Of a stretch of DNA of 64,000 bases, positions 3,084-34,666 are shown piece after piece. A program made the position numbers and the translations under genes. Positions within the stretch are counted from its first letter, which is position 1. Each line of letters starts with the position of its first letter. Below the pieces are notes generated by a model, which was not told the DNA's origin, made no database searches, and saw only the letters and a list, made by a program, of their open reading frames with translations. The DNA is from Actinomycetota bacterium (lineage in GTDB: Bacteria > Actinomycetota > CADDZG01 > JAHWKV01 > JAOPZY01): NCBI GenBank assembly GCA_035765775.1, contig DASTWV010000059.1, forward strand, positions 248,001 to 312,000, in the 5' to 3' direction.

Positions 3084-4106
3084 ATGCGGAATACCGTTGC
3101 GGAGCGGCGCAAGGCGTTGGGACTCACCCAGACCGAACTGGCGCTTGCCAGCCGGCTTTCTCGCCCGCTGATCAGTGCGGTAGAGACCGGCCGCCACGTC
3201 CCCAGCGTCAAGGCGGCCATCGCCATCTCCGAAGTCCTGGGCGGCACGGTCGAGGAAATCTTCGGCAGCAGCGAAGCCCAGGAGGTCCACGTCCCGGCCC
3301 TGGGCACCGCCCCGGCGGGCACGGTGCCCGTGATGGTGGCGCGGGTGGGCGACGTCTTGTCCTACCACCCACTGGACCACGGCGGCGCCGCGGCGACGTC
3401 CTGGGAGAAGGCGGACGGCCTCTACGTCAACGGCCGGGTCGAGCTGTTCCCCGACGCCGATGCCTCGGGCTTCGCGGTCGCCGGCTGCGAGCCGGCCCTC
3501 GGTCTGGCCGCCGCGCTCCTGCCGAAGTCGGGCCCGCAGCGACTGGTGGCGATGCCGGCCACCAGCGGCGAGGCCATCGATGCCTTGAATGCCGGCCGCA
3601 TCCACGGCGCCGTCACCCACGGGCGCCCCGGGCACCTGCGGCGCACCGCGCGCCCGGTGCGGCGCTTCGTGCTGACCGGCTGGCGGGTGGGCCTCGCCTC
3701 CCGGGTCGGGCTGCCCGCCGAACTCGAGCAGCTCGCCAGCGGCCAGCTCAAGGCCGCGACGCGCGATCCGGGTGCCGAATCGCAGAAGGCGCTGGAGCGG
3801 GCGCTGACCCCCTACGGAGGCGTCGCCAAGCTCAGCGGTCTCTCGGCCTCGGGCCACCTGGACGCCGCCCGGCGGGTCTCGGAGGGCCTGGTGGACGTCG
3901 GCATCACCATCGAGGCGGCCGCCCTGGCCTACGGTCTGGTCTTCGCACCGCTCGAGGAGCACCGGGTCGAGTTGCGGGTGTCCGATGAGTGGCAGGACCA
4001 TCCGGGTGCCCACGCCCTGCTTGAGCTCTTCTTCTCCGACAACTTCCGGCACCGCCTGAAGGCGTTGGGCGGCTACGACCTCAGCCAGGCGGGTCCGGTC
4101 GCGTAG
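3084..4106 (+). CDS. XRE-type regulator fused to a periplasmic-binding-protein-like domain
   Basis: 340 residues. Residues 1-60 are an XRE helix-turn-helix (RRKALGLTQTELALASRLSR, then 'PLISAVETGRHVPSVKAAIAI'). Residues about 65-335 look like the PBP-like domain (PF12727 type) found C-terminal to some MoeA and ModE-like proteins, with 'GLYVNGRVELFPDADASGFAV', a GCEPAL loop, 'AGRIHGAVTHGRPGH' and DVGITIEAAALAYGLVFAPL. Such proteins are thought to be one-component regulators that sense a small molecule, often in molybdenum-related contexts. Its own AT-rich promoter lies just upstream. Targets are unknown: the adjacent ABC-2 exporter and the molybdenum locus 3 kb away are both candidates. Confidence 0.75.
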   Translation: MRNTVAERRKALGLTQTELALASRLSRPLISAVETGRHVPSVKAAIAISEVLGGTVEEIFGSSEAQEVHVPALGTAPAGTVPVMVARVGDVLSYHPLDHGGAAATSWEKADGLYVNGRVELFPDADASGFAVAGCEPALGLAAALLPKSGPQRLVAMPATSGEAIDALNAGRIHGAVTHGRPGHLRRTARPVRRFVLTGWRVGLASRVGLPAELEQLASGQLKAATRDPGAESQKALERALTPYGGVAKLSGLSASGHLDAARRVSEGLVDVGITIEAAALAYGLVFAPLEEHRVELRVSDEWQDHPGAHALLELFFSDNFRHRLKALGGYDLSQAGPVA

Positions 4107-5169: not shown

Positions 5170-5903
5170 ACCTGACCTACCTGCGTTACGAGATCATCCG
5201 CACCTTCCGCAACCGGCGGTTCTTCATTTTCTCGCTCATCTTCCCCCTGATCCTGTTCCTGCTGATCGCCGGGCCGTTGCGCGGGAACCACAACTTCGAG
5301 GGCACCGGGATCTCCGCCGCCACCTACCTCATGGTGGGCATGGCCGGCTTCGGAGCGATGGGGGCGGCGATCTCGGGCGGCGCCCGCATCTCGGCCGAGC
5401 GCCAGGTGGGCTGGAACCGCCAGCTGCGCATCACGCCGCTCAGCACGCGGAACTACTTCCGGGCAAAGATCGTCGCCAGCTACCTGATGTCGGTGCTGTC
5501 CATCGGCCTGCTGTACGCCGCCGGGCTGTCGCTCGGGGTGCACATGCCCGCCGGCGACTGGGTCCGCATGACCTTCCTGATGCTGGTCGCCCTCGCCCCC
5601 TTCGCCGCCCTGGGCATCGTCGCCGGCCACCTGCTGACCCCCGACGCCATCGGGCCGGCCATGGGCGGCGCCATGGCACTCTTCGCCCTGATCGGCGGCT
5701 CGTGGGGGCCGATCGTGAAGGCGGGCAGCTCCATCGCCAAGGTGGTGAAGCTCATCCCGTCCTACTGGCTGGTGCAGGCCGGGCAGGCGGCACTGGGGGG
5801 CAAGGGGTGGGCCACCGAGGGGTGGGTCGTGGTGGCCGCCTGGACGCTGGGCCTCGCCGTGCTGGGGGGCAAGGTCTACCAGCGGGACACGAAGAAGGTC
5901 TAG
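5166..5903 (+). CDS. ABC-2-type exporter, membrane subunit
   Basis: 245 residues with about six hydrophobic segments, as in the ABC2_membrane family: an N-terminal 'RTFRNRRFFIFSLIFPLILF' segment, 'YLMVGMAGFGAMGAAISGGA', 'SYLMSVLSIGLLYAAGLSLG' and further helices to the C-terminus. The cytoplasmic 'RISAERQVGWNRQLRITPLS' loop is typical of permeases related to YadH/DrrB that dimerise and pair with a single ATPase. It is the second gene of a two-gene operon with the ATPase at 4201 and ends about 15 bases from the convergent pentapeptide gene. Confidence 0.9.
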   Translation: MNLTYLRYEIIRTFRNRRFFIFSLIFPLILFLLIAGPLRGNHNFEGTGISAATYLMVGMAGFGAMGAAISGGARISAERQVGWNRQLRITPLSTRNYFRAKIVASYLMSVLSIGLLYAAGLSLGVHMPAGDWVRMTFLMLVALAPFAALGIVAGHLLTPDAIGPAMGGAMALFALIGGSWGPIVKAGSSIAKVVKLIPSYWLVQAGQAALGGKGWATEGWVVVAAWTLGLAVLGGKVYQRDTKKV

Positions 5904-5917
5904 CCTCGCCGGAGTCG

Positions 5918-6763
5918 TCAATCCCAGTGGGTGGGCCGTTGGCACCCGGCAGGGATCCGGGTACGGGTATCGCCCCGGGCAGAATCGATCTGGGACTGGG
6001 TGACAAATAGGCAGGCCCCGAGCCCGGCCCCGCGCAGGTCGGCCCCGCGCAGATCCGCGCCCGTGAGATCGGCGGCGCCGAGGTCGAGTCCCTGCAGGTT
6101 GGCCCCCACCAGGAGCGCCCCCCGCAGGCTGGCGTTGCGGAGATCCTGCCGCCGGAGGTCGGCCCCCATCAGCAGTGCCCCCCGCCGGTCGGGCCCGAGC
6201 CCCCCGCGGGCGCCCCTGACGACCACGCTCACCGCGACCAGGGTTTCGTTGACCCCGCGCCGGTGCGCGTCGAGGTCGAGCGCCACCAGCCTGGCTGCGT
6301 CTCCGGAAGCCATCGTTTCTGTTGCTTCGCGGGCCTCAGCCAGGCGCGGCGCGAGGAGCTCGGCGCCCGGCAAGGCCTCGGCGCCGGTCAGCGCCTCGGC
6401 CTCCGTGAGGTACCAGAGCAGCTCGTGGAGCTGGCGCATGACCCCGAAGGCGGCGAACATCTGCCGGGCGGTCCCCGGGGCGCTGCGCCAGTCCCGGCCC
6501 CCGAAGGTCGCCTGCGCAATCCGTTGCCCCGCCCCGAAGCAGTCGTAGGCGGCGCACCCCGGGAACCCCTGGGCGCGCAACGATGGGTGGATGGCGCAGC
6601 GGTGATCCGGGGCCAGGTTCGGGCACGGGCGCCCGGCGGGCTTGTCGAGGGCAAAATCGGCCGAGACCGAAAAGGCCGGTGCGACGCAGCACAGCCCGAA
6701 GCAGCGGCTGCAGTCGGGGCGGAGCTCCGTCCTGCCCGAGTGGCCTTCCACGGACGGGGGCAT
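5918..6763 (-). CDS. Pentapeptide-repeat protein with N-terminal cysteine cluster
   Basis: 281 residues. Residues about 15-75 form a Cys-rich head ([17 protein letters not shown], then '[29 protein letters not shown]' pattern), which could bind a metal. The middle is helical. Residues about 205-260 are pentapeptide repeats of the A(D/N)LxG type: '[20 protein letters not shown]', '[20 protein letters not shown]'. Such repeats make a right-handed quadrilateral beta-helix that mimics DNA in some proteins, but here function is unknown. It is transcribed convergently to the exporter and divergently from mosB. Confidence 0.85.
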
Positions 6764-7084
6764 GGCGCCCAGCGTACTTGCGGCCGGATCCGTCGACCGA
6801 CCGAGTCACGCCTCACTTCTGTAAGCCCGGCTACTGCGGGCCCTCGGCGTCGTCGGGACGGCTTCCTGCCAGCAATTTTTCTCGAAAAGATGTGCAGGGT
6901 CTCGCCCGCGAGCCCCACGCCGATGGTCGTCCGCGTCTCGGACCCTCAGCCGGTAAGAGGGCAGCAGATGCAGGCTTTCCAGGCGGCCGCACTGCCCGCA
7001 CAGCCCAACTCCGCCGCCGCATACTGGCCCCAACCACACGAGCCAGGTGCCCACCGCGCAACCCACATCACAAGGAGGAACCGC
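6764..7084 (+). promoter_or_regulatory. Leader/promoter region of mosBA
   Basis: Non-coding 321 bases between the pentapeptide gene and mosB. It holds an AT-rich patch with the palindrome TTTTCTCGAAAA at about 6878-6889, the only AT-rich island here, which may be a promoter or operator. It is followed by a potentially structured stretch at 6896-6946 closed by AGGGTC/GACCCT. A strong ribosome-binding site (AAGGAGG, about 7071-7077) precedes the ATG at 7085. I could not match the leader to a molybdenum-cofactor riboswitch by eye. Confidence 0.4.
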
Positions 7085-7888
7085 ATGGAAAGCGCCCTGC
7101 ACGACCTGCTGATGCACCGGTCCCTGACCGACAGCGCCCTCATGGAGGCCACCGCCCAGGCCGCCGACTTCCGCATCCTGCCCACCGTGAGCGTGGTCAA
7201 GATCGGCGGCCAGAGCCTGATCGACCGGGGCCGGGCTGCGGTCTACCCGATCGTCGAGGAGCTGGTGGAGGCCTCCAAGCGCCACAAGATCCTGATCGGC
7301 ACCGGGGCCGGCACCCGGGCCCGCCACCTGTACGCCACCGCCGCCGACCTCGGGCTGCCGACCGGTGTGCTGACCGACCTGGGCACCGCGGTCGCCGGCC
7401 AGAACGCCGAGATGCTGGGCTACCTGATGGCCCGGCACGGCATCAGCGTGGTGGGGGTCGGCGGGTTCAGTGGGCTCCCCCTGCACCTGGCCGAGCGCAA
7501 CGCCGCCATCTTCCCCGGCATGCCGCCCTACGACATGTGGCAGCACGTGCCGCGCGAGGGCATCATCCCGCCTTACCGCACCGACGCCGGTTGCTACCTG
7601 GTGGCCGAGGCCTACGGGTGCCGGTCGATGATCTTCGCCAAGGACGAGGACGGGCTGTTCACTGCCAACCCGAAGCGGGACGACTCGGCGACCCTCATCC
7701 CCGAGATCACCGTCAGCGAGTTGCTGGCCATGGACCTGCCCGATCTCGTCGTCGAGCGGCCGCTCCTATCCCTGCTGGCGAAGGCCCGCCATGTCCGCCA
7801 GATCCAGGTGGTCAACGGGCTGAAGCCGGGCTCGATCACCCGGGCACTCGACGGCGAGCACGTCGGCACCATCATCACGGCCGGCTAG
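7085..7888 (+). CDS. mosB: Molybdenum storage protein, beta-type subunit (MosB-like)
   Basis: 267 residues of the amino-acid-kinase (UMP kinase-like) fold that matches the Azotobacter molybdenum storage protein beta subunit along its whole length: start ESALHDLLMHRSLTDSALME, 'ADFRILPTVSVVKIGGQSLI' with 'DRGRAAVYPIVEELVEA', the nucleotide loop IGTGAGTRARHLYATAADLG, GMPPYDMWQHVPREGIIPPY, 'KDEDGLFTANPK' and the end VQVVNGLKPGSITRALDG with EHVGTIITAG. MoSto is an ATP-using cage that stores polyoxomolybdate or tungstate. The ATG at 7085 has a strong Shine-Dalgarno; the longer open frame from 6263 lacks coding character. It is followed by mosA 35 bases on. Confidence 0.93.
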   Translation: MESALHDLLMHRSLTDSALMEATAQAADFRILPTVSVVKIGGQSLIDRGRAAVYPIVEELVEASKRHKILIGTGAGTRARHLYATAADLGLPTGVLTDLGTAVAGQNAEMLGYLMARHGISVVGVGGFSGLPLHLAERNAAIFPGMPPYDMWQHVPREGIIPPYRTDAGCYLVAEAYGCRSMIFAKDEDGLFTANPKRDDSATLIPEITVSELLAMDLPDLVVERPLLSLLAKARHVRQIQVVNGLKPGSITRALDGEHVGTIITAG

Positions 7889-7923
7889 GCCGCACCGACA
7901 ACCCCATCAAGGAGGGATCCCCA

Positions 7924-8730
7924 ATGAGCGAAGCACTGCACGTCGAGTCCGCCCTCATGCGCCAGACCCTGCTGGACCGGGACCTCGTCGCCCCGGCGAC
8001 CGCCCGCCCTGTCATCCGGCTGCTGCCCAACCTGCACGTCGTGAAGATCGGCGGCCATTCGGTTTTCGACCGGGGCCGGGACGCCATCCTCCCGGTGGTC
8101 GACGAGCTGAAGGGCGCCATGAAGGAGCACAAGCTGCTGATCACCACCGGTACCGGCATCCGGGGTCGGCACGTCTTCGAGGTGGGCCTCGACCTCGGCC
8201 TGCCGACCGGCGTCCTGGCAGGCCTGGCGTCAGTGGACGCCGAGAAGAACGGCCACATGCTTGCGGCCCTGCTGGCCGAGGAGGGCGTCGTCTACCTGCC
8301 GCACCAGAGCGTCGGCCACCACCTGCCGGTCTTCCTGGCGGCGGTGCCGGCCGTGGTCGCCAACGGCTACCCGCCCTACGGGCTGTACGAGTTCCCCCCC
8401 GAGGTCGGGCGGATCCCGCCCCACCGGACCGATGCCGGGGCCTTCCTCCTCGCCGACGCCTACGGCGCGGCGAGGCTGGTGTACGCCGACGACGTGGACG
8501 GCATCTTCACGGCCGACCCGGCGACCGACCCGGGGGCGACCCTGATCCCGCAGGCCACCGCCGCAGAGCTGCAGGGCCTGGCGACGCTGCCGATTGACCG
8601 GATCGTGCTGGAGCTCATGGCCTCGGCCAAGCACATCAAGCAGATCCAGGTGGTGAACGGGCTGCGGCCGGGTGCCATCACCAGGGCGCTGGCGGGCGAG
8701 CACGTGGGAACGATCGTTACTGCCGGTTAG
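7924..8730 (+). CDS. mosA: Molybdenum storage protein, alpha-type subunit (MosA-like)
   Basis: 268 residues, paralogous to the upstream gene and closer to the MoSto alpha subunit: 'MRQTLLDRDLVAPATARPVI', RLLPNLHVVKIGGHSVFDRG, TGTGIRGRHVFEVGLDLGLP, 'AEKNGHMLAALLAEEGVVYL', GRIPPHRTDAGAFLLADAYG, DDVDGIFTADP and VNGLRPGAITRALAGEHVGT. Alpha/beta trimers of dimers form the storage cage. Two segments differ from the Azotobacter alpha protein as I recall it: PHQSVGHHLPVFL replaces a segment ending in IHL, and PPYGLYEF replaces PPYHHHEF, so the histidines reported to anchor the molybdate cluster appear to be missing. Shine-Dalgarno AAGGAGG at 7909-7915. Convergent with the Mop-domain regulator gene. 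Confidence 0.9.
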   Translation: MSEALHVESALMRQTLLDRDLVAPATARPVIRLLPNLHVVKIGGHSVFDRGRDAILPVVDELKGAMKEHKLLITTGTGIRGRHVFEVGLDLGLPTGVLAGLASVDAEKNGHMLAALLAEEGVVYLPHQSVGHHLPVFLAAVPAVVANGYPPYGLYEFPPEVGRIPPHRTDAGAFLLADAYGAARLVYADDVDGIFTADPATDPGATLIPQATAAELQGLATLPIDRIVLELMASAKHIKQIQVVNGLRPGAITRALAGEHVGTIVTAG

Positions 8731-8752
8731 GTCTGGTCAACAGGTCATGCGC

Positions 8753-9148
8753 CTAGTGGTCGGCGGGTAGCTCGATCATCACGCTCGTCGATTTCACCGC
8801 CGCCACCGCCAGCATCCCGGGCTCCAGGCCGAGGTCGTCCGCCGCCTCCCGCGTCATGAGGGAGACCATGCGGAAGGGCCCGGCCTGGAGCTCGACCTGG
8901 GCAGCGACCCCGTCGCGCACCACCCGGGTGACGATGCCCGTCAGGTGGTTGCGGGTGGACTGCACCCGGAGCCCCTCGATCTCGTGGGTGCCGGAGGAGA
9001 CGAAGCGGGCCAGCTCGGCCCCGTCGATCATGCGTTGCCCGCCGCCGGTGCGCTCGGCGGGCAGCTTGCCGGCATCGACCCAGCGCCGCACGGTGTCGGC
9101 GCTCACGCCGAGGACCTCAGCGACCTGACCGATCCGGTACTGGGGCAC
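8753..9148 (-). CDS. MerR/excisionase-type HTH protein with Mop (TOBE) molybdate-binding domain
   Basis: 131 residues. Residues 1-45 are a MerR-like helix-turn-helix (PQYRIGQVAEVLGVSADTVR, 'RWVDAGKLPAERTGGGQRMI'). Residues about 62-128 are a Mop/TOBE domain: TRNHLTGIVTRVVRDGVAAQ ... 'AVAAVKSTSVMIEL', the fold that binds molybdate or tungstate oxyanion in ModE and ModC. This is the third gene of the modA-modBC operon (28 bases after modBC), so it is probably a molybdate-responsive regulator or oxyanion carrier. The GTG start at 9148 puts the HTH at the N-terminus. Confidence 0.88.
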   Translation of the reverse strand: MPQYRIGQVAEVLGVSADTVRRWVDAGKLPAERTGGGQRMIDGAELARFVSSGTHEIEGLRVQSTRNHLTGIVTRVVRDGVAAQVELQAGPFRMVSLMTREAADDLGLEPGMLAVAAVKSTSVMIELPADH

Positions 9149-9176
9149 GGGGCGACTCTACTGAAACGTGCAGAAA

Positions 9177-11042
9177 TCAGCGAACTGGGGTGGCGCTTCG
9201 CTGCACGGGATCCGGGGCTGGTTCAGCCACAGCCCATACCGTGATGTGGCCCGGGGGCAGGGAAACGTCCACCAGATCCCCCGGACGTACCGACGGAGCG
9301 GTCACCGAGCGTGCCCGCAACTCGGGGCCCACCCCGTCGCCCAGGCGCAGCACCAGGTCGCTCACCGCCCCCATGTTCACGATGTCCAGGACCCGCGCCC
9401 CGTAGCGCGCCCCTCTCTGCAGCCCGTCGAGCGCCACGTACTCAGGGCGGATCGACCAGAGCACGGCACTGCCGGGGCTGAGGCCAGGAGTGGGCACCGA
9501 GATCGTCACACCGTCCACATCAATGCCGCCGTCCGCCCCCACGATGCCCTCCCGTAGGTTCTGGATCCCCAGCAGGCGGGCCACCTGGGGCGACGCCGGG
9601 CGGGCGTAGACCTCGGGCAGGGGCCCGGCCTGCAGGACCCGCCCGTGATCCATCACGATGACCTCGTCCGCCAGCAGGGCGGCCTCCTCGGGGTCGTGGG
9701 TGACCAGCACCGAGGACAGCCCGGTCTGCAGCTGGAGCCGGCGCAGCTCCCGGCGCAGCTCGTCGCGCACCGGGGCATCGAGGGCCGAGAAGGGCTCGTC
9801 GAGCAGCAGCAGCCGGGGCCCCCGGGCCATCGCCCGGGCGACGCTCACCCGCTGGCGCTGGCCGCCTGAGAGCTGCGAGGGAAGGCGGTCCTCCAGCCCG
9901 GTGAGGTGCAGGGTGTCCAGCCACCAGGCGGCGACCGCGGGGTCGGCGTCCGGGGCGAAACGCAGCTGCTGCCACACGGTCAGGTGCGGGAAGAGGCCGG
10001 TCGTCTGGGGCACGTAGCCGATCCGGCGGGCCTCGACCGGGACCCGGTTGACCACCTCCCCGTCGTAGAGCACCGGGCCGCACTTCGGCCCCATCAGCCC
10101 GGCCAGGCACTTGAGCGTCATGGACTTCCCCGACCCTGACGCGCCCAGGATCGCCACCCGGAACCGGGTGGACTGGTGGGCGAGGCGCAGGTGGAACGAG
10201 CCGACCGCGGTGTCCAGGTCGAAGCCGACCGGCGTGTGCGGCGCGGGCGCCGGGGGTGTCGCCAGCGGCAGGACCGCCTTGCGGCGGTAGCGCACGCCGG
10301 GCCGGATGTGCTCCAGACCGACGAGGAGGGCGGCGATGCACAGGGCCAGGGCGGTGGGAGCCACGGTTGCGTCCAGGCCGACGGCCTGGAACTGGACATA
10401 GTTGAAGACCGGCAGCGTGTAGGGGTGGTAGGCGAGGATGACCGTGGCGCCGTACTCGCCGAAGGCCCGGAGCCAGGCGAGCAGCAGCCCGGCCCGGATG
10501 CCGGGAGCGGCGGCGGGCAGGCTCACCTGGAAGAAGCGGGCGAGCGGGCGGCGGCCCAGCGTGGCGGCGACGTCCTCGAGGGCGGGATCGGCCGCCTCGA
10601 ACGCCGACCGGGCGGCGACGATCAGGAACGGCGCCGAGACAAAGCTCTGGGCGATGACCACCCCGGCCAGCGTCCCGGTCAGGTGCCCCCCGAACAGCCT
10701 CCCGACGGTGGTGTAGGGGCCGACGAGGAACAGCAGGAGGATGCCGCTCATCAGAGGCGGCAGGGCCAGGGGGAGGTAGACCGCAACCCCCACGGCCGTG
10801 GCGATCCAGCTCCGGCTGTGGGCCAGGGCGTAGGCGAGCGGGATGCCCGCCAGGGCGATCACCAGCACCGAGATGGTGGCGCTGGACGACGAGACCCAGA
10901 CCGCGTCCCACAGCCCGGGCGTGCTGGGCAGGGGTGCCTGGTGGGACAGCCGGACCAGGAAGGCGAGGACCGGCACGAGCAGGTACAACGCCAGCAGCCC
11001 CCCCAGCCACATGAGGGGGCTGCGGGCTGCCCGGAAGTTCAC
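9177..11042 (-). CDS. modBC: Molybdate ABC transporter, fused permease-ATPase (ModB-ModC)
   Basis: 621 residues, which fuse two normally separate subunits. Residues about 1-265 are the ModB-type permease: five or six membrane segments and the EAA loop 'LEDVAATLGRRPLARFFQVS' near residue 165. After a Pro/Ala linker ('ATPPAPAPHTPVGFD') comes the ModC-type ATPase, with Walker A 'ILGASGSGKSMTLKCLAGLM' near 300, 'IGYVPQTTGLFPHLTVWQQL', signature SQLSGGQRQRVSVARAMA, Walker B LLLLDEPFSALDAPVRDEL and switch 'SSVLVTHDPEEAALLADEVI'. The C-terminal about 130 residues form a TOBE-like oxyanion domain. A transporter would need two copies of the fusion. Starts with GTG, 31 bases after modA. Confidence 0.92.
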   Translation of the reverse strand: MNFRAARSPLMWLGGLLALYLLVPVLAFLVRLSHQAPLPSTPGLWDAVWVSSSSATISVLVIALAGIPLAYALAHSRSWIATAVGVAVYLPLALPPLMSGILLLFLVGPYTTVGRLFGGHLTGTLAGVVIAQSFVSAPFLIVAARSAFEAADPALEDVAATLGRRPLARFFQVSLPAAAPGIRAGLLLAWLRAFGEYGATVILAYHPYTLPVFNYVQFQAVGLDATVAPTALALCIAALLVGLEHIRPGVRYRRKAVLPLATPPAPAPHTPVGFDLDTAVGSFHLRLAHQSTRFRVAILGASGSGKSMTLKCLAGLMGPKCGPVLYDGEVVNRVPVEARRIGYVPQTTGLFPHLTVWQQLRFAPDADPAVAAWWLDTLHLTGLEDRLPSQLSGGQRQRVSVARAMARGPRLLLLDEPFSALDAPVRDELRRELRRLQLQTGLSSVLVTHDPEEAALLADEVIVMDHGRVLQAGPLPEVYARPASPQVARLLGIQNLREGIVGADGGIDVDGVTISVPTPGLSPGSAVLWSIRPEYVALDGLQRGARYGARVLDIVNMGAVSDLVLRLGDGVGPELRARSVTAPSVRPGDLVDVSLPPGHITVWAVAEPAPDPVQRSATPVR

Positions 11043-11073
11043 GGGTAGGTCAGGGCATGACGCCGCCCTGCGA

Positions 11074-12042
11074 TCACATACCCAACGCCGTGTTGAGACC
11101 CGCCGGTTCCCCGGTGCCGGTCACCGAGGGCGGGGTGACGAGCTGGAACTGGTCGGTGGTCATGAAGGCCTGGCCGGTCTTGCCGAGGAGGAAGTTGACG
11201 AAGGCCTCCGCCCCGGCCTCATCGGACGCCTTGTTCAGGATGGTGATGGTGTAGGTGGCATGCAGGGTGGAAGCCGGCCCGGTGAGCGGCACCGTCTTGA
11301 TGCCGGACGCCTGCGCCTCGATCGTGTAGAAGAACGCGGCATCGAGCTGCTTGGTCTGCAGCTGGGCGACCAGCGAGGTCTCGTCGAAGACGTTGCCGGT
11401 GTTGGTGGCAGCGACCAGGGCCTTGAGCGCCGTCGGGTTGGACACCGCCGGCGACAGGCCGCCGGCCGCCGCAGTGGTGGTGACCGCCTGGGCGGCCAGG
11501 ACCCCCTTCGGGTCGGTCTTCGGATCGGTCCGGCCCAGCTTGAAGCCGTTCAGGGTCACGGCGTTGTACCAAGGCCGGCTGGTGATCGCCGAGGCATAGG
11601 TGCTGCTGGGGTTGTAGCCGAGCACCAAGCCCGACGTGGCGATGGTGGCATACCACGAGACCCAGTTGCCGTTGGCCGACCCCATCAGGGAGGCGTTGGG
11701 GGCGGCGGCGGCGGAGAGGAAGACGTCGCCCTGGTACACGCCACTCTTGATGCCGCTGGCGAGGGCGGTGGAGCCGGCGCCTGTGCCGTTGAATTTATAG
11801 CCGGTGGCCGCCTGGAAGGCCGGTCCGATCTGGTTGGTCATGAGGCCGGCCAGCGAGCCGGCGTACAGCACGTTGACCGGTTGGCCGTTGCCGTTGACCG
11901 CGGTGGGGCTGGCAGTGGTCCCGCCGCTGGGCGTGGAACCACCGGTCGAGTGGTTGGTGCTCTTGCTGCACGCGGCCAGCAGCAGGACGAACACGGTGGA
12001 CAGCACCGCCGCACGGCGCGCCCGTGAGGTGGACTGCTCCAT
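11074..12042 (-). CDS. modA: Molybdate/tungstate-binding lipoprotein (ModA/WtpA-like)
   Basis: 322 residues from the ATG at 12042, which has an AAGGAG Shine-Dalgarno and begins a lipoprotein signal peptide (ARRAAVLSTVFVLLLAACSK, lipobox LLAAC). The mature protein starts with a Ser/Thr/Gly-rich tether and shows the oxyanion-binding-protein pattern: 'VNVLYAGSLAGLMTNQIGPA', GAGSTALASGIKSGVYQGDV, 'LVLGYNPSST' and a late 'ASDEAGAEAFVNFLLGKTGQ'. The VLYAGSL start resembles the WtpA branch, which prefers tungstate in some species, so molybdate against tungstate cannot be settled by reading. First gene of modA-modBC-regulator. Confidence 0.88.
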   Translation of the reverse strand: MEQSTSRARRAAVLSTVFVLLLAACSKSTNHSTGGSTPSGGTTASPTAVNGNGQPVNVLYAGSLAGLMTNQIGPAFQAATGYKFNGTGAGSTALASGIKSGVYQGDVFLSAAAAPNASLMGSANGNWVSWYATIATSGLVLGYNPSSTYASAITSRPWYNAVTLNGFKLGRTDPKTDPKGVLAAQAVTTTAAAGGLSPAVSNPTALKALVAATNTGNVFDETSLVAQLQTKQLDAAFFYTIEAQASGIKTVPLTGPASTLHATYTITILNKASDEAGAEAFVNFLLGKTGQAFMTTDQFQLVTPPSVTGTGEPAGLNTALGM

Positions 12043-12203
12043 TGCTCGGGATGCTCCTTCCCTGTACGGACTGGTCGTCGAGCCAGCATCCGCGTTCCGG
12101 CGCGCGCGAGGTCTGGCCCTCGTCTGGACCATCCTGCCATCCCGTGGGGACCGATGTCCAGCGTTTGCAGCCTTGCTGGGGCAAATCGGCTGGATTTTGC
12201 GAG
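12043..12203 (-). promoter_or_regulatory. Leader of the modA operon
   Basis: 161 non-coding bases between DUF2277 (upstream on the same strand) and modA. This must contain the promoter of the modA-modBC-regulator operon. I see the Shine-Dalgarno sequence (AAGGAG about 11 bases before the ATG) but no clear ModE palindrome and no recognisable molybdenum-cofactor riboswitch. An open frame extends the modA frame upstream to 12132 but does not look like coding sequence. Confidence 0.35.
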
Positions 12204-12422
12204 CTAGGACCCGGAAATCTCCTGGCGAACGCCAGGTTGCAGGGAGTCGAGCAGACGGGCAGAGGCCTGCGTGATCTCCTGGACCGCCGCCTCGAACGCT
12301 GCCGTGTTGGCCCGGGAAGGTGCCCGGTAGCCACTCACCTTGCGCACGTATTGGAGCGCAGCGGCGTGGATCTCCTCGGGAGTGGGGTCAGCACCCCGGA
12401 GCGTCTTGATACTGCGGCACAT
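12204..12422 (-). CDS. DUF2277 family protein
   Basis: 72 residues that match DUF2277 end to end: 'MCRSIKTLRGADPTPEEIHA', AALQYVRKVSGYRAPSRANT, then 'AAFEAAVQEITQASARLLDS'. This small family has no assigned function; the invariant MCRxIKTLR start and QYVRKVSG motif are both present. The ATG lies 5 bases after the stop of the flavin-dependent oxidoreductase gene, so the two form an operon. Confidence 0.9.
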   Translation of the reverse strand: MCRSIKTLRGADPTPEEIHAAALQYVRKVSGYRAPSRANTAAFEAAVQEITQASARLLDSLQPGVRQEISGS

Positions 12423-12427
12423 GGGGT

Positions 12428-13312
12428 TCAGCCCTCCTCAGCTGCGATCTGGTCCGGGTCGGCGGGCGGGGCGGGGGCGAAACGGCTGGCGGTCTCCATC
12501 AGCACCCCGAGGGCCTCGAAGACCTCATCGAGCTCGGGGTTCTCGCCGGCGGGCATGTTCACGATGCAGCGCAGGACGGTTTCGTCCAGCACCGCCTCGT
12601 AGGGCTCAGCCATGGCTATCGCCTTTTCCGGGTCGGGGGCCCCGATGCCAGCCGAGGCCACCCCCATGGCGGCGAAGTTCTGCGCGTACTGCGGCATCTG
12701 GTTGTACCGCGAGGCCTCGGCGGCCACCCGCATCCCGGCGCCCTGGCCGAGGGCCACCCGCACGTAGGAGGCCACCTCGGGCTCCGGCGCCCGGAGGCCG
12801 GCGAGCCGGTTGGCCGCCCCTTCCCGGATCCGTTCCCGGGCCCAGGCGATGCGCTCCGGGTTCATCCAGTTGAGGAGCACCAAGTCGGCCACCTCGCCCC
12901 CCATCCGGCACATCTTCGGCCCCATGGCGGCCACCCCGACGGTGAGGTCGGGCGCGAGGTCGCGCAGCTCGCCGACCGCCGCCCGGACCTGGTTGACCGT
13001 GGCTTTCATCCCCGCCCCGAGGACCACCACGAGGCGCTCGCCCGCGGCCCCGCGGGCTGCCCCGTCAAGGGCCTGGGCGATCACGGTGGGAGGCCTGCGG
13101 TCCACCGCGACCGCCCCCACCCCTACCCGGATGTGCTGCGCCGCCTCGAGCATCGCGGTGGCGCACGCCAACCCGTCGCCCGGTGGGGCGTCGTTGGTCC
13201 AGACCGTTCGGTAGCCGAACTCCTCGGCGCTGCCGGCGATGGTGGCGACCAGCCCGAGGTCACCGGTCGACGGGAAGGCAAAGCCCCGCACCGGGGCTGT
13301 GGGCGTCGTCAT
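12428..13312 (-). CDS. LLM-class flavin (probably F420)-dependent oxidoreductase
   Basis: 294 residues with the luciferase-like monooxygenase TIM-barrel pattern: 'VRGFAFPSTGDLGLVATIAG', 'SAEEFGYRTVWTNDAPPGDG', 'AAQHIRVGVGAVAVDRRPPT' and RLVVVLGAGM. Actinobacterial LLM proteins of this kind mostly use reduced F420 or FMN; the substrate cannot be deduced. The protein is shorter than typical (330-350), with a compact middle section. It heads a two-gene operon with the DUF2277 gene and is followed about 50 bases upstream by an unrelated nucleotidyltransferase gene on the same strand. Confidence 0.83.
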   Translation of the reverse strand: MTTPTAPVRGFAFPSTGDLGLVATIAGSAEEFGYRTVWTNDAPPGDGLACATAMLEAAQHIRVGVGAVAVDRRPPTVIAQALDGAARGAAGERLVVVLGAGMKATVNQVRAAVGELRDLAPDLTVGVAAMGPKMCRMGGEVADLVLLNWMNPERIAWARERIREGAANRLAGLRAPEPEVASYVRVALGQGAGMRVAAEASRYNQMPQYAQNFAAMGVASAGIGAPDPEKAIAMAEPYEAVLDETVLRCIVNMPAGENPELDEVFEALGVLMETASRFAPAPPADPDQIAAEEG

Positions 13313-16991: not shown

Positions 16992-18569
16992 CTACCGGAC
17001 GTCCGCCAGCAGCAGCGGCGGCACCTTCAAGGCGGTGATCCGGGGGGTGCGGCCGACGGTCTCGGACGCCATCTCCAGGGCGTCGGCCAGCGTCCCCGCC
17101 GAGCGGAAGCCGAGGCGGGCCACCGTCTTGCGGTCGCCGCCGACGAAGATCACATCGCCCAGGTGCTGCATGGCATGCGACGCCCAGTACCACATGTAGA
17201 ACGGGTGGACGCCGTGGTAGGCGTGCGATGTCCGGTACAGGTGGATGTACCAGGGATCGGTGGCGAAGGACTCCTCGTACTTGGACTCGATGACCGCCGG
17301 GTCGGTGGTCTCGGCCAGCACCTCCTCGAAGAAGTCCACGTAGCTGGGGTGGTGCACCTGGTGGAACTCCCGGCGCACCGGGTGGAACATGATCATCACG
17401 CCGCCCGGCCGCACCAGGGGCTGGTTGCGGTACAGGTTGAAGAAGTAGCCCAGCCCGAGGCACACCACCAGGATCGGGTTCATGATCGAGTTGACGTTGT
17501 AGGGCCCGACGAAGGGCAGCCCGGCGATGAGGATGTCGGACTGGCCGTTGACCTCGACCAGCTGCTGGCGGTGCAGGTTGGCGAGGGTGCGGGTGTGCAC
17601 CGCCTCGGTCTCGCCGGCGTTGATCCCGGTGATGCCGTAGGGCGAGTAGATCTTGTGGAAGATCGAGCGCTTGAGGTGGGCCGGCGCCCGGTCGGTGGAC
17701 GCCTTGGTGGCCAGGTAGGCGGCCTGGTCCTTCGCCGACCACTCCCACTCCCGGCGCATCAGGAAGTCGAACGGGGGGCCGAAGGTGTCGTTGTTGAGCG
17801 TGGTCTCGATGGTGAAGATCTTGACGTGCTCGGCGAGCAGGTGACCCATGCGGGTGGCCGAGGAGTGCAGGGCGCTGGCCGGCGGGTCCATGTAGGAGCG
17901 GCTGTGCAGCATCGTGTGGACGTTGTGGTGGTGCTTCAGGCTCTTGTAGCTCGCCAGGCCCACGGGCACGCTCTTGTGGCCGCCGTCCATGGCCACCAGG
18001 TTGATGTTCACGTAGACGAGAAGGTCGCTGGTGGCCGCCCGCTTGGAGATCTCGACGTCCTCACCCATCTCGGTCTTGCCCACGTGGATCAGGGCGTCGG
18101 GGTCCTCGGCGTCGAAGTTGTACAGGGCGTGGGGCCAGAACGAGCGGTAGACCCGCTCCCCCACCGCCCGCTTGACCTCGGCGGCGGTCATCCGGCGGTG
18201 CAGGGCGGTGGCGATGATGATCTCTACGTCGTCCACGCCCGCCCGGGCGGCCCGCTCCAAGACGTGCTCCAGGATGCGGCCCCGGATGTCGGGCGTCTTC
18301 ATCTGCGGCAGGGGGATTGAGATGTCGTCGATTGCGATGGTCAGCTTCATCCCCCGCGTGAGGAGGGCGGTGAGGGGCTCGCTGCCCTGCGGGTGGTCGA
18401 GGGCGTGGTCGATGGCGGCATCGACGTCCTTGATGCCGGGCAGCGACTCCGGCGGGTAGACGACCCGGCTCCCCAGCGGGAGGCGCTCGAGGCGGAACCC
18501 CTCGCCGTTGTGGAACAGCAACGGAGGGGTGCGCTCGTCCACCTCCAGCACGAAGCCCGGTCTGCTCAC
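16992..18569 (-). CDS. LarA-like (DUF2088/lactate racemase superfamily) protein
   Basis: 525 residues. The N-terminal half resembles the nickel-dependent lactate racemase LarA: 'MKLTIAIDDISIPLPQMKTP', IIIATALHRRMTAAEVKRAV (LarA His in LHR), and 'NLVAMDGGHKSVPVGLASYK' with a Lys where LarA attaches its nickel-pincer cofactor, followed by a KHHHN cluster. The C-terminal half ('YFFNLYRNQPLVRPGGVMIM', 'HAYHGVHPFYMWYWASHAMQ') is less typical, and some LarA residues (the Arg after the Asp, one His) seem absent, so it is a divergent member. It sits with lipid enzymes; no larB, larC or larE is in the window. GTG start with a GGAG site. Confidence 0.72.
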   Translation of the reverse strand: MSRPGFVLEVDERTPPLLFHNGEGFRLERLPLGSRVVYPPESLPGIKDVDAAIDHALDHPQGSEPLTALLTRGMKLTIAIDDISIPLPQMKTPDIRGRILEHVLERAARAGVDDVEIIIATALHRRMTAAEVKRAVGERVYRSFWPHALYNFDAEDPDALIHVGKTEMGEDVEISKRAATSDLLVYVNINLVAMDGGHKSVPVGLASYKSLKHHHNVHTMLHSRSYMDPPASALHSSATRMGHLLAEHVKIFTIETTLNNDTFGPPFDFLMRREWEWSAKDQAAYLATKASTDRAPAHLKRSIFHKIYSPYGITGINAGETEAVHTRTLANLHRQQLVEVNGQSDILIAGLPFVGPYNVNSIMNPILVVCLGLGYFFNLYRNQPLVRPGGVMIMFHPVRREFHQVHHPSYVDFFEEVLAETTDPAVIESKYEESFATDPWYIHLYRTSHAYHGVHPFYMWYWASHAMQHLGDVIFVGGDRKTVARLGFRSAGTLADALEMASETVGRTPRITALKVPPLLLADVR

Positions 18570-27185: not shown

Positions 27186-28205
27186 CTAGCGGGCCGACTC
27201 GTCGATGTCCCGGCGCAGCAGGACCAGCGCCCAGGTGGCGACCAGGACCACGAGCAGGATCCCGAGGAACAGGGCCGCCCGATCGGCGTGCACGAAGACG
27301 GAGGGCGGCGGGGTCGACAAGAAGCGGGCAGGCCCCCGGATCACCGGATCGACGTGCACCCACCCACCGATGAGGGCCCCGGCGTTCGTGGTGAGCAGCC
27401 ACCGGATCCACTCCGGGTGCTGGCGGCGCACGACGATCTCGAAGACCACCAGGTAGCCGACCGCCCCGACCAGGGCCGCCGCGGTGTGGCGGGTCAGCCC
27501 GGCAATGGCCGCCCCGGCACCGGTCAGGGCCACGACGAGGAGCAGGCCGCGCAGGGAGTACATGAGGATGTGGTGCTTGACCGCGCCCGTGATGCCTGCC
27601 GTCGTGCCCCGGGTGGCGGCAATCAGCCAGCCGCCGAAGAGGAGCAGCACGGTGGTCACCACCCCGATGGCGACGAAGGTGATGATGAGCGCAGCCAGCT
27701 TGGAGCCCAGCACCCGCAGCCGGCGGGGTTCCCAGGTGAGCAGGAGCGGGAACGTGCCGGCGGTCCACTCGGCCCCGATGAACCCGGTCCCGATGACGAA
27801 GCCCAGGATGCTGACCAGCGCGATGGCGGCGACCACCAGATGCGTGCCGTTGTCGGCGAAGGAGAAGCGGGGATCCTGGTAGAGGTCGGATGCGGACGGG
27901 GCGAAGATGGTGCACGGGCCAGCGCCCTTGAGCACCGGCCCGGGACCGTCCCGGGAGGCACTCGCCGGGGCGGGCGTGATGGTGACCGACCCCCCGCACG
28001 CCTGCTCGAGTCCGGGCGGCCGCTGGGTCAGGAATCCCTGCGCCTCCTGCTGGGCCTTGGCGTGGGCGCCCGCCAGGTCGCGATTGGAGAGGGCCCCGTT
28101 CACGACGATGATGGCCAGCACGGTCAGGAACAGGGCGGCCAGCAGCACCCGGAACAGCCGGCGCTTGAACAGGCGCCGGAGCTCGACCTTCGTGAGGCGG
28201 ATCAC
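27186..28205 (-). CDS. ABC-2-type permease (second exporter)
   Basis: 339 residues. N-terminal 'IRLTKVELRRLFKRRLFRVL' plus a membrane helix (LLAALFLTVLAIIVVNGAL), a large external loop with two Cys, then five or more helices ('LVVAAIALVSILGFVIGTGF', 'AALIITFVAIGVVTTVLLLF', 'GLLLVVALTGAGAAIAGLTR', 'LFLGILLVVLVATWALVLLR'). The cytoplasmic 'GAEWTAGTFPLLLTWEPRRL' loop matches ABC-2 permeases of the NatB/BcrB kind. GTG start overlaps the ATPase stop by 4 bases. Confidence 0.88.
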   Translation of the reverse strand: MIRLTKVELRRLFKRRLFRVLLAALFLTVLAIIVVNGALSNRDLAGAHAKAQQEAQGFLTQRPPGLEQACGGSVTITPAPASASRDGPGPVLKGAGPCTIFAPSASDLYQDPRFSFADNGTHLVVAAIALVSILGFVIGTGFIGAEWTAGTFPLLLTWEPRRLRVLGSKLAALIITFVAIGVVTTVLLLFGGWLIAATRGTTAGITGAVKHHILMYSLRGLLLVVALTGAGAAIAGLTRHTAAALVGAVGYLVVFEIVVRRQHPEWIRWLLTTNAGALIGGWVHVDPVIRGPARFLSTPPPSVFVHADRAALFLGILLVVLVATWALVLLRRDIDESAR

Positions 28206-29197
28206 GGCGCCCCTCCGGCAGGCGTGCCCGGCACGGGCCGGTCCACCGGCGCCAGCACACCGGTGCCCTGGGCGGAGGGGTCCTCGGTGAGCGAGATGAA
28301 CACGTCCTCGAGCTCGGCCTGGTCCACGGTGATCTCGTCCAGCCAGATCCCCTGGGCCACCAGGAGGCGGTTGACCTCCCGGGGCGGGGCGCCGCCCACC
28401 ATGCAATGGCCATTGCCGGCGACCGCGGTGAGCCCCGCCTGGGTCAGGACGGCGGCTGCGGCGGCAGGGTCCTCGACGGTGACCCGGACCCGCCTGGCCG
28501 CCGACCCGTCGCCCGTGGCCCCGGCCAGGACCTCGGTCACCGAGCCCGTCCGCAGCGCCCGGCCCCGGGCCACGATGGTGACCGAGGAGCAGACCTGCTC
28601 GACCTCATGGAGGAGGTGGGAGGAGAGCAGCACCGTGACGCCCTGCTCGGCCAGCCGGCGCATGAGCGTGCGGACCTCCCGCATGCCGCCCGGGTCGAGG
28701 CCATTGGTGGGCTCGTCGAGCAGCAGGAGCCGGGGCCGCTTTAGGAGGGCACCGGCGATGCCGAGCCGCTGGCGCATGCCGAGCGAGTAGGCCCTGACCG
28801 GGTCGTTCTCCCGACCGATCAGCCCGACGGTCTCCAGGGCCTCGTCCACCCGCTTGGCGTCGAACCCGGCGACATCGGCCAGCAGGCCGAGGTTGTAGCG
28901 TCCGCTAAAGGGCGGGAAGAACCGGGGGCTCTCGACAACCGAGCTCATCGAGTTCACGACGTCGGCGAGCCCGCCGGGCAGGGAGTGGCCGAGCACCGAG
29001 ACCGCCCCCGAGTCGGCGTGGACCAGGCCGGTCAGGACCCGGAGGGTGGTGGTCTTACCGCTCCCGTTGGGGCCGAGGAAGCCGTGGACCTCGCCCTGGG
29101 GGACGGTCAGATCCAGCCCGTCGAGGGCCCGGCGGGGCTGGCCCCGGAAGCCACCCCGGTAGGTCTTGCGCAGGCCGCGGACTTCAACGGCGATCAT
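28202..29197 (-). CDS. ABC-2-type exporter ATPase (second exporter)
   Basis: 331 residues. Walker A 'GFLGPNGSGKTTTLRVLTGL', signature 'YSLGMRQRLGIAGALL' (LGMRQ variant of LSGGQ, common in BcrA-like ATPases), Walker B 'LLLLDEPTNGLDPGGMREVR', switch 'TVLLSSHLLHEVEQVCSSVT'. The C-terminal part is the accessory domain of BcrA/NatA-type exporters, linked to lantibiotic or bacitracin self-protection in other bacteria; here the substrate is unknown. An inverted repeat upstream (29236-29254) may be the operator of an unlinked regulator. Confidence 0.92.
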   Translation of the reverse strand: MIAVEVRGLRKTYRGGFRGQPRRALDGLDLTVPQGEVHGFLGPNGSGKTTTLRVLTGLVHADSGAVSVLGHSLPGGLADVVNSMSSVVESPRFFPPFSGRYNLGLLADVAGFDAKRVDEALETVGLIGRENDPVRAYSLGMRQRLGIAGALLKRPRLLLLDEPTNGLDPGGMREVRTLMRRLAEQGVTVLLSSHLLHEVEQVCSSVTIVARGRALRTGSVTEVLAGATGDGSAARRVRVTVEDPAAAAAVLTQAGLTAVAGNGHCMVGGAPPREVNRLLVAQGIWLDEITVDQAELEDVFISLTEDPSAQGTGVLAPVDRPVPGTPAGGAP

Positions 29198-29235
29198 CGA
29201 GGTTGCCTTTCACCAGCCGCCCGCACCCGGGGCAA

Positions 29236-29254
29236 CTATACACTACGGGTATAG
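29236..29254 (-). promoter_or_regulatory. Inverted repeat CTATAC-N7-GTATAG upstream of the second exporter
   Basis: Perfect 6-bp arms at 29236-29241 and 29249-29254 in an AT-rich island about 40 bases upstream of the ATPase start. The arms also resemble -10 elements, so it may combine promoter and operator (GntR/YtrA-type sites often look like this). Confidence 0.5.
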
Positions 29255-29338
29255 CGTGCGCGGGCAGGTGCCTACTTCTCCGCCGCTCGAGCCCCTCCCG
29301 AGCGGCGCCCCGGCCCAGAAGCCTTACGGCTAGAAACC

Positions 29339-30088
29339 TTACGGCGAGAGCTTGTAGCCCAGGCCCCGGATGGTCTTCACATGCTCCGGCTGCCGGGGGT
29401 CCTGCTCGATCTTGGCCCGCAGCCGCTTGATGTGGACGTCCAGGGTGCGGGTGTCACCGAAGTACTCCACGCCCCAGACCTCGGACAGCAGCACCTGGCG
29501 GGTCACGAGCTTGCCCGGGCGCAGCATGAAGGCCTCCAGGAGGGCGAACTCCTTGGGCGGCAGCTCGACCTGCTCGCCGCGCACCGAGACCTCGTGGCGC
29601 TGGGTGTCCATCTCGATCGGCCCCACCACCAGGCTGCCGCCCCGGGCCCCCTCCCCGCCCTTGGCGGGCAGCATCCCGGCCCGGCGCAGGTGCGCCCGGA
29701 CCCGGGTGACCAGCTCCCGCATGGAAAAGGGCTTGGTGACGTAGTCGTCGGCGCCGATCTCCAGGCCCGCCACCTTGTCGGCCTCCCGGTCCTTGGCGGT
29801 GAGGATGACGATGGGCACCCCGGACTCGGCCCGGATGATGCGGCACAGGTCCAGCCCGTTCATGCGCGGCAGCATGAGGTCCAGGATCACCAGGGCAGGC
29901 GAGCGCTCCCGGAACAGGTCGAGGCCCCGCGCGCCGTCCATCGCCGACAGGGCCTCGAAGCCCTCCCGCTGCAGCTGGTAGCAGATGGCCCCGACCAGGG
30001 CCTCCTCGTCCTCGACCACCAGGATGGGTCCGGCGACGGCGGGTGCCTCGGGGAACTCGGCACCGGTGGCCAGGTCAGAGCTGCTCAA
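29339..30088 (-). CDS. OmpR-family response regulator in the pst-phoU operon
   Basis: 249 residues. Receiver domain: 'PILVVEDEEALVGAICYQLQ' (acidic pair), phospho-acceptor in 'VILDLMLPRMNGLDLC', Thr in 'VPIVILTAKDREADKVAGLE', Lys in 'YVTKPFSMRELV'. C-terminal winged helix: 'VELPPKEFALLEAFMLRPGK', RTLDVHIKRLRAKIEQDP, 'VKTIRGLGYKLSP'. It ends the pstS-phoU operon; its likely TTG start at 30088 overlaps the phoU stop. No kinase gene is adjacent: the nearest one belongs to the divergent pair at 34782-36874. RegX3/PhoP-like; a role in the phosphate response is inferred from context. Confidence 0.9.
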   Translation of the reverse strand: MSSSDLATGAEFPEAPAVAGPILVVEDEEALVGAICYQLQREGFEALSAMDGARGLDLFRERSPALVILDLMLPRMNGLDLCRIIRAESGVPIVILTAKDREADKVAGLEIGADDYVTKPFSMRELVTRVRAHLRRAGMLPAKGGEGARGGSLVVGPIEMDTQRHEVSVRGEQVELPPKEFALLEAFMLRPGKLVTRQVLLSEVWGVEYFGDTRTLDVHIKRLRAKIEQDPRQPEHVKTIRGLGYKLSP

Positions 30089-30798
30089 CGTCCGGCCTCC
30101 GTCAGCTTCGCATTGGCCTCCACCTCGGGGTGCGAGGCGTCGGTGAACTCCTCGAAGACGCCGGTGACCAGGTAGGCCACCTGCTCGCCGATGTCCACCG
30201 CGTGGTCGCCCACCCGTTCGATCTGGCGGGACACCAGGTGCATCTGGACGCCCCATTCCAGCATCGGTTTGCCCCGGGACTCGGTGAGGATCTCGGCCAG
30301 CATGCCCCGGTTCAGGTCGTCCAGCGGCTCGTCCATCGTCGGCAGCGCCCGGGCGAGATTGTTGTCGCGACGCTCGAGGGCGTCCATGGCGGCCGCCAGC
30401 ATCTCGAGGGCGATGGCCCCCATGGTGCGCAGGTGGCCGAGCACGGTGGGCTGCTGGGGCAGCCCGTGGGCGGCGGCCGTGATCTTGGCGACGTTCACCG
30501 CCATGTCGGCGATGCGCTCCAGGTGCAGGTTGATGTGGAGGAGCGCCGCCAGCAGGCGCAGATCGCTGGCCACCGGGCCCTGCAGGGCAAACAGCTCGAC
30601 GACCCCCTGCTCGATCTCGATGTAGAGGGCATCGACGCTGTCGTCGCCCGCCACCACGGCCTCACAGCTGGCGAGGTCGTCCGCCTCGATGGTGGCGAGG
30701 CCGGCCCGGAAGAGGTCGCTCGCCCCCCGTCCCATCACCTGGATCTGCTGCTCCAGGTGGGCGAGCTGCTCGTGGAAACGCTTGCGGGTCTCGACCAT
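30085..30798 (-). CDS. phoU: Phosphate uptake regulator PhoU
   Basis: 237 residues made of two PhoU helical bundles: 'RKRFHEQLAHLEQQIQVMGR' starts the first, with metal-binding acidic patch 'AVVAGDDSVDALYIEIEQGV' and 'LERIADMAVNVAKI'; the second ends with 'IERVGDHAVDIGEQVAYLVT', the repeated E/DxxxD signature. PhoU connects the Pst transporter to the PhoR kinase and damps phosphate import and signalling. It overlaps the pstB stop (1 base) and the regulator start. Confidence 0.95.
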   Translation of the reverse strand: MVETRKRFHEQLAHLEQQIQVMGRGASDLFRAGLATIEADDLASCEAVVAGDDSVDALYIEIEQGVVELFALQGPVASDLRLLAALLHINLHLERIADMAVNVAKITAAAHGLPQQPTVLGHLRTMGAIALEMLAAAMDALERRDNNLARALPTMDEPLDDLNRGMLAEILTESRGKPMLEWGVQMHLVSRQIERVGDHAVDIGEQVAYLVTGVFEEFTDASHPEVEANAKLTEAGR

Positions 30799-31574
30799 CA
30801 GCCGAACCGCCCCGTGATGTAGCCCTCGGTGCGTTTGTCCTCGGGCTGAGTGAAGATCTTCTTGGTGGGGCCGACCTCGATGATCCGCCCGGGGTCGCCG
30901 GTGTTCTCGGCCAGGAGGAAGGCGGTGCGGTCCGCCACCCGGGCGGCCTGCTGCATGTTGTGGGTGACCAGCACGATGGTGTAGCGCTCGCGTAGCTCCA
31001 TGATCAGGTCCTCGATCTTGAGGGTGGCGACCGGGTCCAGGGCCGAGCACGGCTCGTCCATGAGCAGGATCTCGGGCTCGACCGCGGTGGCCCGGGCGAT
31101 GCACAGCCGTTGCTGCTGCCCGCCGGACAGGCCGGTGGCCGGGGAGCCGAGCCGGTCCTTGACCTCGTCCCAGAGGCCTGCTCCGGTCAACGCCTTCTCG
31201 GCGATCTCGTTGATCTCCGTGCGGGACTTCCGGCCGTTCAGGCGGTACCCGGCCACCACGTTCTCCTCGATCGACATGGTCGGGAACGGGTTGGGGCGCT
31301 GGAACACCATGCCCACAGCCCGCCGGACGGCGACCGGGTCCATAGCGTCGTCGTAGATGTTCTCGCCGTCCAGGCTGACCGTGCCCTCGGCCCGGGCGCC
31401 CGGGATCAGCTCATGCAGCCGGTTGAGACACCGGATGAACGTGGACTTGCCGCACCCGGAGGGGCCGATGAGGGCCGTGACCTGGTTGGGCTCGACCGAG
31501 AGCGACATGTCCTCGATGGCGAGGCGGCTGCCGTACCAGGCGTTCAGGTTGGAGATCTCGAGGCTCGATGCCAT
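30798..31574 (-). CDS. pstB: Phosphate ABC transporter ATPase PstB
   Basis: 258 residues, standard PstB: '[20 protein letters not shown]', Walker A '[20 protein letters not shown]', '[20 protein letters not shown]' (the PstB-specific FQxPNPFP), signature [20 protein letters not shown], Walker B '[20 protein letters not shown]' and switch His in '[20 protein letters not shown]'. It provides ATP hydrolysis for high-affinity phosphate import. The ATG overlaps the pstA stop by 4 bases. Confidence 0.97.
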
Positions 31575-32437
31575 CAGGTGACACTCCTTCGGGCGGTGAC
31601 GAACCGCGCGGCCAACGTGAGGATCAGGACAAATGCAAGGAGCGTGAGGGCGGCGCCCCACGCCCTGGCCACCTGGGGGTCGTAGGCCGAGGTAGCACCG
31701 CTGAAGATGGCCACCGGCAGCGAGCTGATGGGCTGCGTGATCTTGAACGACATGAACTGCCAGTCCAGGGCGGTGAAGAGCAGTGGGGCGGTCTCCCCCG
31801 CCGCCCGGGAGACGGCCAGCATGGCGCCGGTGGTGATGCCGGCGCCCGCCGAGGGCAGGACCACCTTCAGCACGGTCTTCCACTTGGGCGTGCCCAGCGC
31901 CAGGGACGCCTCCCGGATGCCGGAGGGCACCCGCAGGAGCATTTCCTCGGTGGTGCGCAGCACGATGGGCCACATGATCATGCCGAGGGCGAGTGCCCCG
32001 GCCAGGCCGGAGTAGTGGTGGACGTAGACCACCACGAGGCCGTAGGCGAAGACCCCGAACAGAATCGAGGGGATCCCGGTCATCACCTCGGCGAAGAAGC
32101 GCACCAGCCGGGCCAGGCGGGTCCCGGGGGCGAACTCGGCCAGGTACACCGCTCCCAGGATGCCGAGGGGGATGAACACCACCGACGCGAGCAGCACCAT
32201 GAGCACCGTGCCGATGATGGCGTTGCCCACGCCCCCGGCCGTCGAGGTGGGGTCGCCGGGCGGCGGCTGCGTGAAGAACGAGACGCCGTGGATGGCGTGG
32301 AGCCCCTTGATGATCACCTCGATGAGGATCGACACCAGGGGCACGGCGGACAGCACGAGGGCGGCCACCATCGCCACGAGCATCGCCTTGTCCACGACCT
32401 TGCGCCGGGTGGAGGCGGTCTGCATCGCCCTTGCCAT
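31574..32437 (-). CDS. pstA: Phosphate ABC transporter permease PstA
   Basis: 287 residues with six predicted membrane helices. Typical PstA stretches are '[20 protein letters not shown]', '[20 protein letters not shown]', the EAA-like coupling loop '[20 protein letters not shown]' and '[17 protein letters not shown]', with the conserved Arg and Glu in SRAAGET that are needed for phosphate transport. It pairs with PstC in the membrane. Confidence 0.96.
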
Positions 32438-32441
32438 CGCC

Positions 32442-33419: not shown

Positions 33420-33429
33420 TCTGCCTCGT

Positions 33430-34551: not shown

Positions 34552-34666
34552 CCCGGCGTTCCTCCCTTTGTGTGCTGTGTCCGGACTCACCGGGGGAGCG
34601 CGCCGCGCGCCACCCCGGCTTACAACGCGACGCTAGGGGCCGGGGAGGGCCGGTTGGTGGTCTCCA

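Follow-up and report, generated by a model that had tools for sequence, protein, structure and literature searches.

By sequence and fold, the adjacent genes mosB and mosA in a 64,000-nucleotide stretch of DNA from an Actinomycetota bacterium (contig DASTWV010000059.1, positions 248,001 to 312,000; hereafter the window) belong to the MoSto kind of molybdate/tungstate storage protein. Our reading of the pair, to which we assign a probability of roughly one half, is that it would encode an (alpha-beta)3 storage cage that is nearest not to the Azotobacter type but to a type found scattered among actinobacteria and in one Chloroflexi MAG, and that would hold its metal-oxide clusters differently. 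Judged from an alignment of 23 alpha subunits, the real oddity of the window alpha is that a histidine is lost at position 140 and one is gained at position 136. Positions and columns of the alpha subunit are numbered throughout on the A. vinelandii MosA sequence in the PDB (Glu129, His130, Gln136, His140 and His156/157/158).

The mosB-type beta gene (7085..7888, plus strand, 267 amino acids) precedes the mosA-type alpha gene (7924..8730, plus strand, 268 amino acids), each with an AAGGAGG ribosome site upstream, and the two homologues are thus encoded together. In phmmer searches the best match of the beta subunit is MoSto beta (E 3e-113) and the alpha subunit matches MoSto alpha in the PDB (E 8e-86), being about 57% identical to Azotobacter MosA; in NCBIfam no model recognises the two products as storage proteins, and only weak kinase matches below the cut-off were obtained. 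An AlphaFold model of the window alpha (13 sequences, mean pLDDT 80.9) superimposes on 2ogx_A with a Z-score of 33.8 and 1.9 Å over 233 residues; no other protein of this fold exceeds a Z-score of 24.9. The register of the alpha subunit is not in doubt, since the phmmer match, the structural match and a 55-sequence alignment of alphas, betas and beta-like relatives all give the same columns.

Like A. vinelandii MosA/MosB (2OGX, 4F6T, 4NDO), the window pair consists of two homologous subunits of the amino-acid-kinase fold, with nucleotide-site lysines in both subunits and with alpha His130. UMP kinases (PyrH) share the fold (Z up to 24.9), but they are only some 20-25% identical and do not form an alpha/beta pair beside mod genes, whereas the TOBE-domain Mop/Tub molybdate/tungstate storage proteins do a similar job with an unrelated small fold and hold single oxyanions instead of clusters (PMC11980592). 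By analogy with the ATP-dependent loading of Azotobacter MoSto (PMC6448029), assembly into an (alpha-beta)3 cage and ATP-driven loading would be expected of the window protein. The solved MoSto structures that we found all come from one species, and a paper of 2019 states that the storage protein has no known homologues (PMC6448029).

The mosBA pair as a whole is, on the evidence of its conserved columns, not decaying, because the beta subunit shows a single, conservative change (V163I) and keeps the other 104 of the 105 columns that are invariant in other betas. Its nucleotide-site lysine, Lys39, is retained, and KIGG (in the Lys42 region) and other invariant segments are intact; with these residues kept, beta would presumably take part in ATP-dependent loading. 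The nucleotide-site lysine of the window alpha (Lys41, 8044..8046, plus strand; Azotobacter Lys45) is kept as well, as it is in the Azotobacter type and in all betas, but V or S takes its place in the other actinobacterial alphas. In one branch of these (L051-L054), eroded nucleotide-site motifs in alpha stand beside fully conserved betas, which suggests that the nucleotide role of alpha was lost there.

According to a review of polyoxometalate structures, the Mo8 cluster of Azotobacter has His156 and Glu129 as covalent ligands, and three histidines, equivalent by symmetry and given no residue number, bind a W3 unit on the threefold axis (PMC4504029). The original prediction held that the histidines anchoring the cluster appear to be missing from the window alpha. 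The strings on which it was based, VFL, PPYGLYEF and SVGHHLP, are indeed present in the translation of 7924-8730, and alignment to A. vinelandii MosA places Phe137, Gly153, Leu154 and Tyr155 at the equivalent positions; the structural comparison with Azotobacter MoSto that it had proposed upholds this register, as the alpha model fits 2ogx_A. We take the three-histidine W3/Mo3 site on the threefold axis to be alpha His140.

At positions 129, 130, 136, 140, 156, 157 and 158 the window alpha has Pro, His, His, Phe, Gly, Leu and Tyr, so that the Azotobacter ligand positions read E129P, H140F, H156G, H157L and H158Y. The residues concerned, all encoded on the plus strand, are Pro126 (8299..8301), His127 (8302..8304), Phe137 (8332..8334) and Gly153-Leu154-Tyr155 (8380..8388), and the loop after the last of these exceeds that of Azotobacter by two residues; in the model, loop 156-162 has a pLDDT below 50. 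Both Mo8 ligands and His140 are thus absent, including Glu129, the loss of which had been overlooked at first, and the equivalent of His130, invariant in 23 of 23 alphas, is retained. A further departure from Azotobacter MosA is Lys108 at position 111 (8245..8247, plus strand), where Gln is found in every one of the 54 other alphas, betas and beta-like sequences of the alignment. Because His156 and Glu129 are lacking, it follows from the sequence that the window cage cannot anchor Mo8 as Azotobacter does. With Pro and Gly at alpha 129 and 156, and Phe at 140, the pair is not filed as Azotobacter-type.

That part of the original prediction therefore stands, but the lack of the anchor does not set the window apart, as is evident from its relatives. 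We searched about 1,600 genomes together with plasmid and species-genome collections, in which the Pseudomonadota were represented by Azotobacter and Azospirillum only. mosBA is rare, occurring in 4 of 396 genomes of the window's phylum and in none of the other searched genomes of its own class; it occurs in 15 of 150 genomes in the family of one Pseudonocardiales genome. Relatives in the plasmid collection were confined to Azospirillum, and the viral and phage collections yielded none. Glu129, His156-157-158 and the short loop are found together in five of the 22 other alphas, one from Azotobacter, two from Azospirillum plasmids and two from Chloroflexota genomes; these five make up a clade with support of 100/100. 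The remaining 17, nearly all from Actinomycetota, carry P, G or S at position 129 and G or E at position 156, and their loop is longer by two residues; the beta subunits and beta-like relatives lack the Glu129/His156 pair too. The missing anchor of the window is ordinary, given that 17 of 22 other alphas and the betas do without it, and to say that the window lacks anchoring histidines is mostly to compare it with a derived minority type. The simplest reading makes the Mo8 anchor a derived trait of a single clade; its absence, the common state, is probably also the older one. More distant MosAB-like proteins (L038-L042, L011 and L012), single or paired, occur in Chloroflexota and in other genomes of the window's phylum; they are neither clearly alpha nor clearly beta and may be undescribed relatives of the storage proteins.

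The actinobacterial and Chloroflexi pairs (L003-L010, L032, L033, L046-L054) resemble the window at 129, at 156 and in the longer loop, and in several of them mod genes are adjacent; identity to the window is at most 72% for alpha and 74% for beta. Unlike the window, all of them keep Gln111, Gln136 and His140, and with few exceptions their alpha shows V or S in the Lys45 column. Across the 22 other alphas 64 columns are identical, and the window departs from them at three, namely Gln111 to Lys, Gln136 to His and His140 to Phe. In a leave-one-out comparison the other alphas depart at zero to four such columns, many of the changes being mild (for example V to I). Gln136 and His140, invariant in 22 of 22, occupy positions i and i+4 of one helix, predicted in the window at residues 127-140, and His136 would thus lie one turn before the lost His140 on the same face. 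The probability that two of three changed invariant sites fall within four residues by chance is about 0.12, so that clustering alone is weak evidence, and the argument for a swap would have to rest on the identity of the changed residues and not on their spacing. The 'new HH' of the original prediction (His132-His133, 8317..8322, plus strand; Asp135 and Gln136 in Azotobacter), which lies within the same helix, is new in its second residue only: His133 is unique to the window, but a histidine in column 135 is common in actinobacterial relatives and occurs in 11 other alphas. The combination of His136 and Phe140 comes from one sequence in one assembly and is found in none of the 22 other alphas. 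A single sequencing error was considered as its source and set aside, because the changes from Gln to His and from His to Phe need at least three base changes; the codons are CAC (8320-8322) and TTC (8332-8334), and the frame is intact.

How, then, would such a cage hold its metal? Without Glu129 and His156 as covalent Mo8 ligands, a cluster in the alpha pocket would have to be a different one or be held by other contacts, candidates for which are the invariant residue equivalent to His130 and the extended loop behind position 158. On the threefold axis, Phe occupies position 140, and the His at 136 precedes it by one turn on the same face of the helix; the histidine ring would then most probably be shifted along the axis and not abolished, which would change the axial cluster. 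This displacement by one turn is the least certain step of our proposal, drawn as it is from one sequence. The full proposal, in which the trinuclear anchor has moved from alpha 140 to 136, the axial polyoxometalate has a geometry unlike that in the Azotobacter structures and the cage buffers Mo for Moco enzymes in a host without nitrogenase, is accordingly put forward tentatively.

A rival that we hold to be less likely than our main reading is that Phe140 simply removes the axial site and His136 is incidental, in which case the alpha half would store metal noncovalently or not at all and storage would take place elsewhere in the cavity. H140F does take away a conserved ligand, several Azotobacter clusters are reported to be retained largely through van der Waals contacts (PMC4504029), and the structure of an Azotobacter H156A variant has been solved (6h6w), so that the anchor is not needed for folding. 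However, such a loss would not readily explain why Gln136 in particular became His on the same helix face, or why alpha otherwise keeps 61 of the 64 invariant columns. Nor does the beta subunit offer a specific compensation. Its His134 lies in the column that matches alpha 140, and a reciprocal exchange of histidines between the two subunits was dropped as a strong claim, as betas vary widely in this column (Y, Q, S, F, K or H) and the beta subunit of L054 has His as well, together with an alpha subunit that keeps His140. The three non-conservative changes at otherwise invariant sites might also mean that the window alpha is decaying and serves only a structural purpose, all the more since some actinobacterial alphas (L051-L054) have clearly lost their nucleotide-site motifs; with Lys41, nearly all invariant sites and an intact frame preserved, we consider this improbable.

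A related question is whether Phe140 was acquired at all. The window alpha may have branched off before His140 and Gln136 became fixed, which would make Phe140 an old state rather than a loss and would be compatible with either mechanism; we regard this as plausible, if somewhat short of an even chance. Phylogenetically, the window alpha diverges before all other alphas (98/92), a placement that persists once alignment columns 126-166 are removed (96/90), and in the 140 column the betas and the single-gene relatives rarely carry H but show Y, F, S, Q or K. Then again, a tree constrained to place the window alpha among the actinobacterial alphas is worse by no more than 5.4 log-likelihood units and is not rejected (p-AU 0.074), and the PPYGLYEFPPEVG motif and the mod neighbourhood link it to them. 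Phe140 may therefore be either old or the result of a later loss.

The genes downstream of mosBA, on the opposite strand, link the pair to molybdate metabolism. They encode a regulator with a MerR-type HTH and a TOBE domain (8753..9148, minus strand), a fused ABC permease-ATPase that is ModB-ModC-like and has a C-terminal TOBE_2 domain (9177..11042, minus strand), and a ModA-like solute-binding protein (SBP_bac_11; 11074..12132, minus strand). TOBE is a molybdate-binding type of domain. The same regulator gene is located near mosBA in L005, L009, L064 and L075, and mod genes adjoin mosBA in L005, L009 and L075 and in part in L064. The genome contains two MoeA genes, one of them on the mosBA contig, and Moco synthesis is present. 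The 95.8% complete assembly gave no PF00148 (Oxidored_nitro) match, and Rfam found no RNA element, hence no Moco riboswitch, in 5500-12500. Tungsten is a known cargo of the Azotobacter storage protein. The context supports Mo/W as the cargo, with other oxyanions disfavoured because mod genes adjoin mosBA here and in relatives and the genome has Moco synthesis, and it supports Moco enzymes as the consumer: this genome, unlike that of Azotobacter, yielded no nitrogenase match, so that the stored metal would probably feed molybdopterin enzymes. The original prediction had left room for a different cluster, W, a phosphate-containing cluster or another oxyanion. A changed or differently held cluster of Mo or W is retained as our reading, but phosphate clusters and other oxyanions find no support. 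That the cage binds, for example, phosphate, vanadate or arsenate in place of Mo/W would fit a ligand set different from Azotobacter's; next to a TOBE regulator and molybdate-type ABC genes, in an arrangement kept in relatives, and with Moco synthesis in the genome, it is very improbable.

Several other genes of the window deserve mention. A few genes away from mosBA lies an HTH_3 regulator fused to a PBP-like domain (3084-4106, plus strand), an arrangement that could serve to sense molybdate or another oxyanion. Immediately upstream of mosBA, and divergent from it, a gene at 5918-6763 (minus strand) encodes a pentapeptide-repeat protein whose N-terminal part contains several cysteines. A LarA-like protein with the N-terminal domain of lactate racemase, a nickel enzyme family, lies at 16992-18569 (minus strand). 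The regions 28202-34590 and 56191-58437 (both minus strand) carry genes for ABC transport of the phosphate type, accompanied by response regulators of the OmpR/PhoB type, and a polyphosphate kinase next to a CHAD/CYTH protein.

Taken together, the comparison shows that the covalent Mo8 site is a trait of a minority clade, whereas Gln136 and His140 of alpha form the more general signature. One natural variant replaces exactly this pair, and it offers a natural experiment on how protein ligands determine the metal-oxide cluster that grows in the cage.
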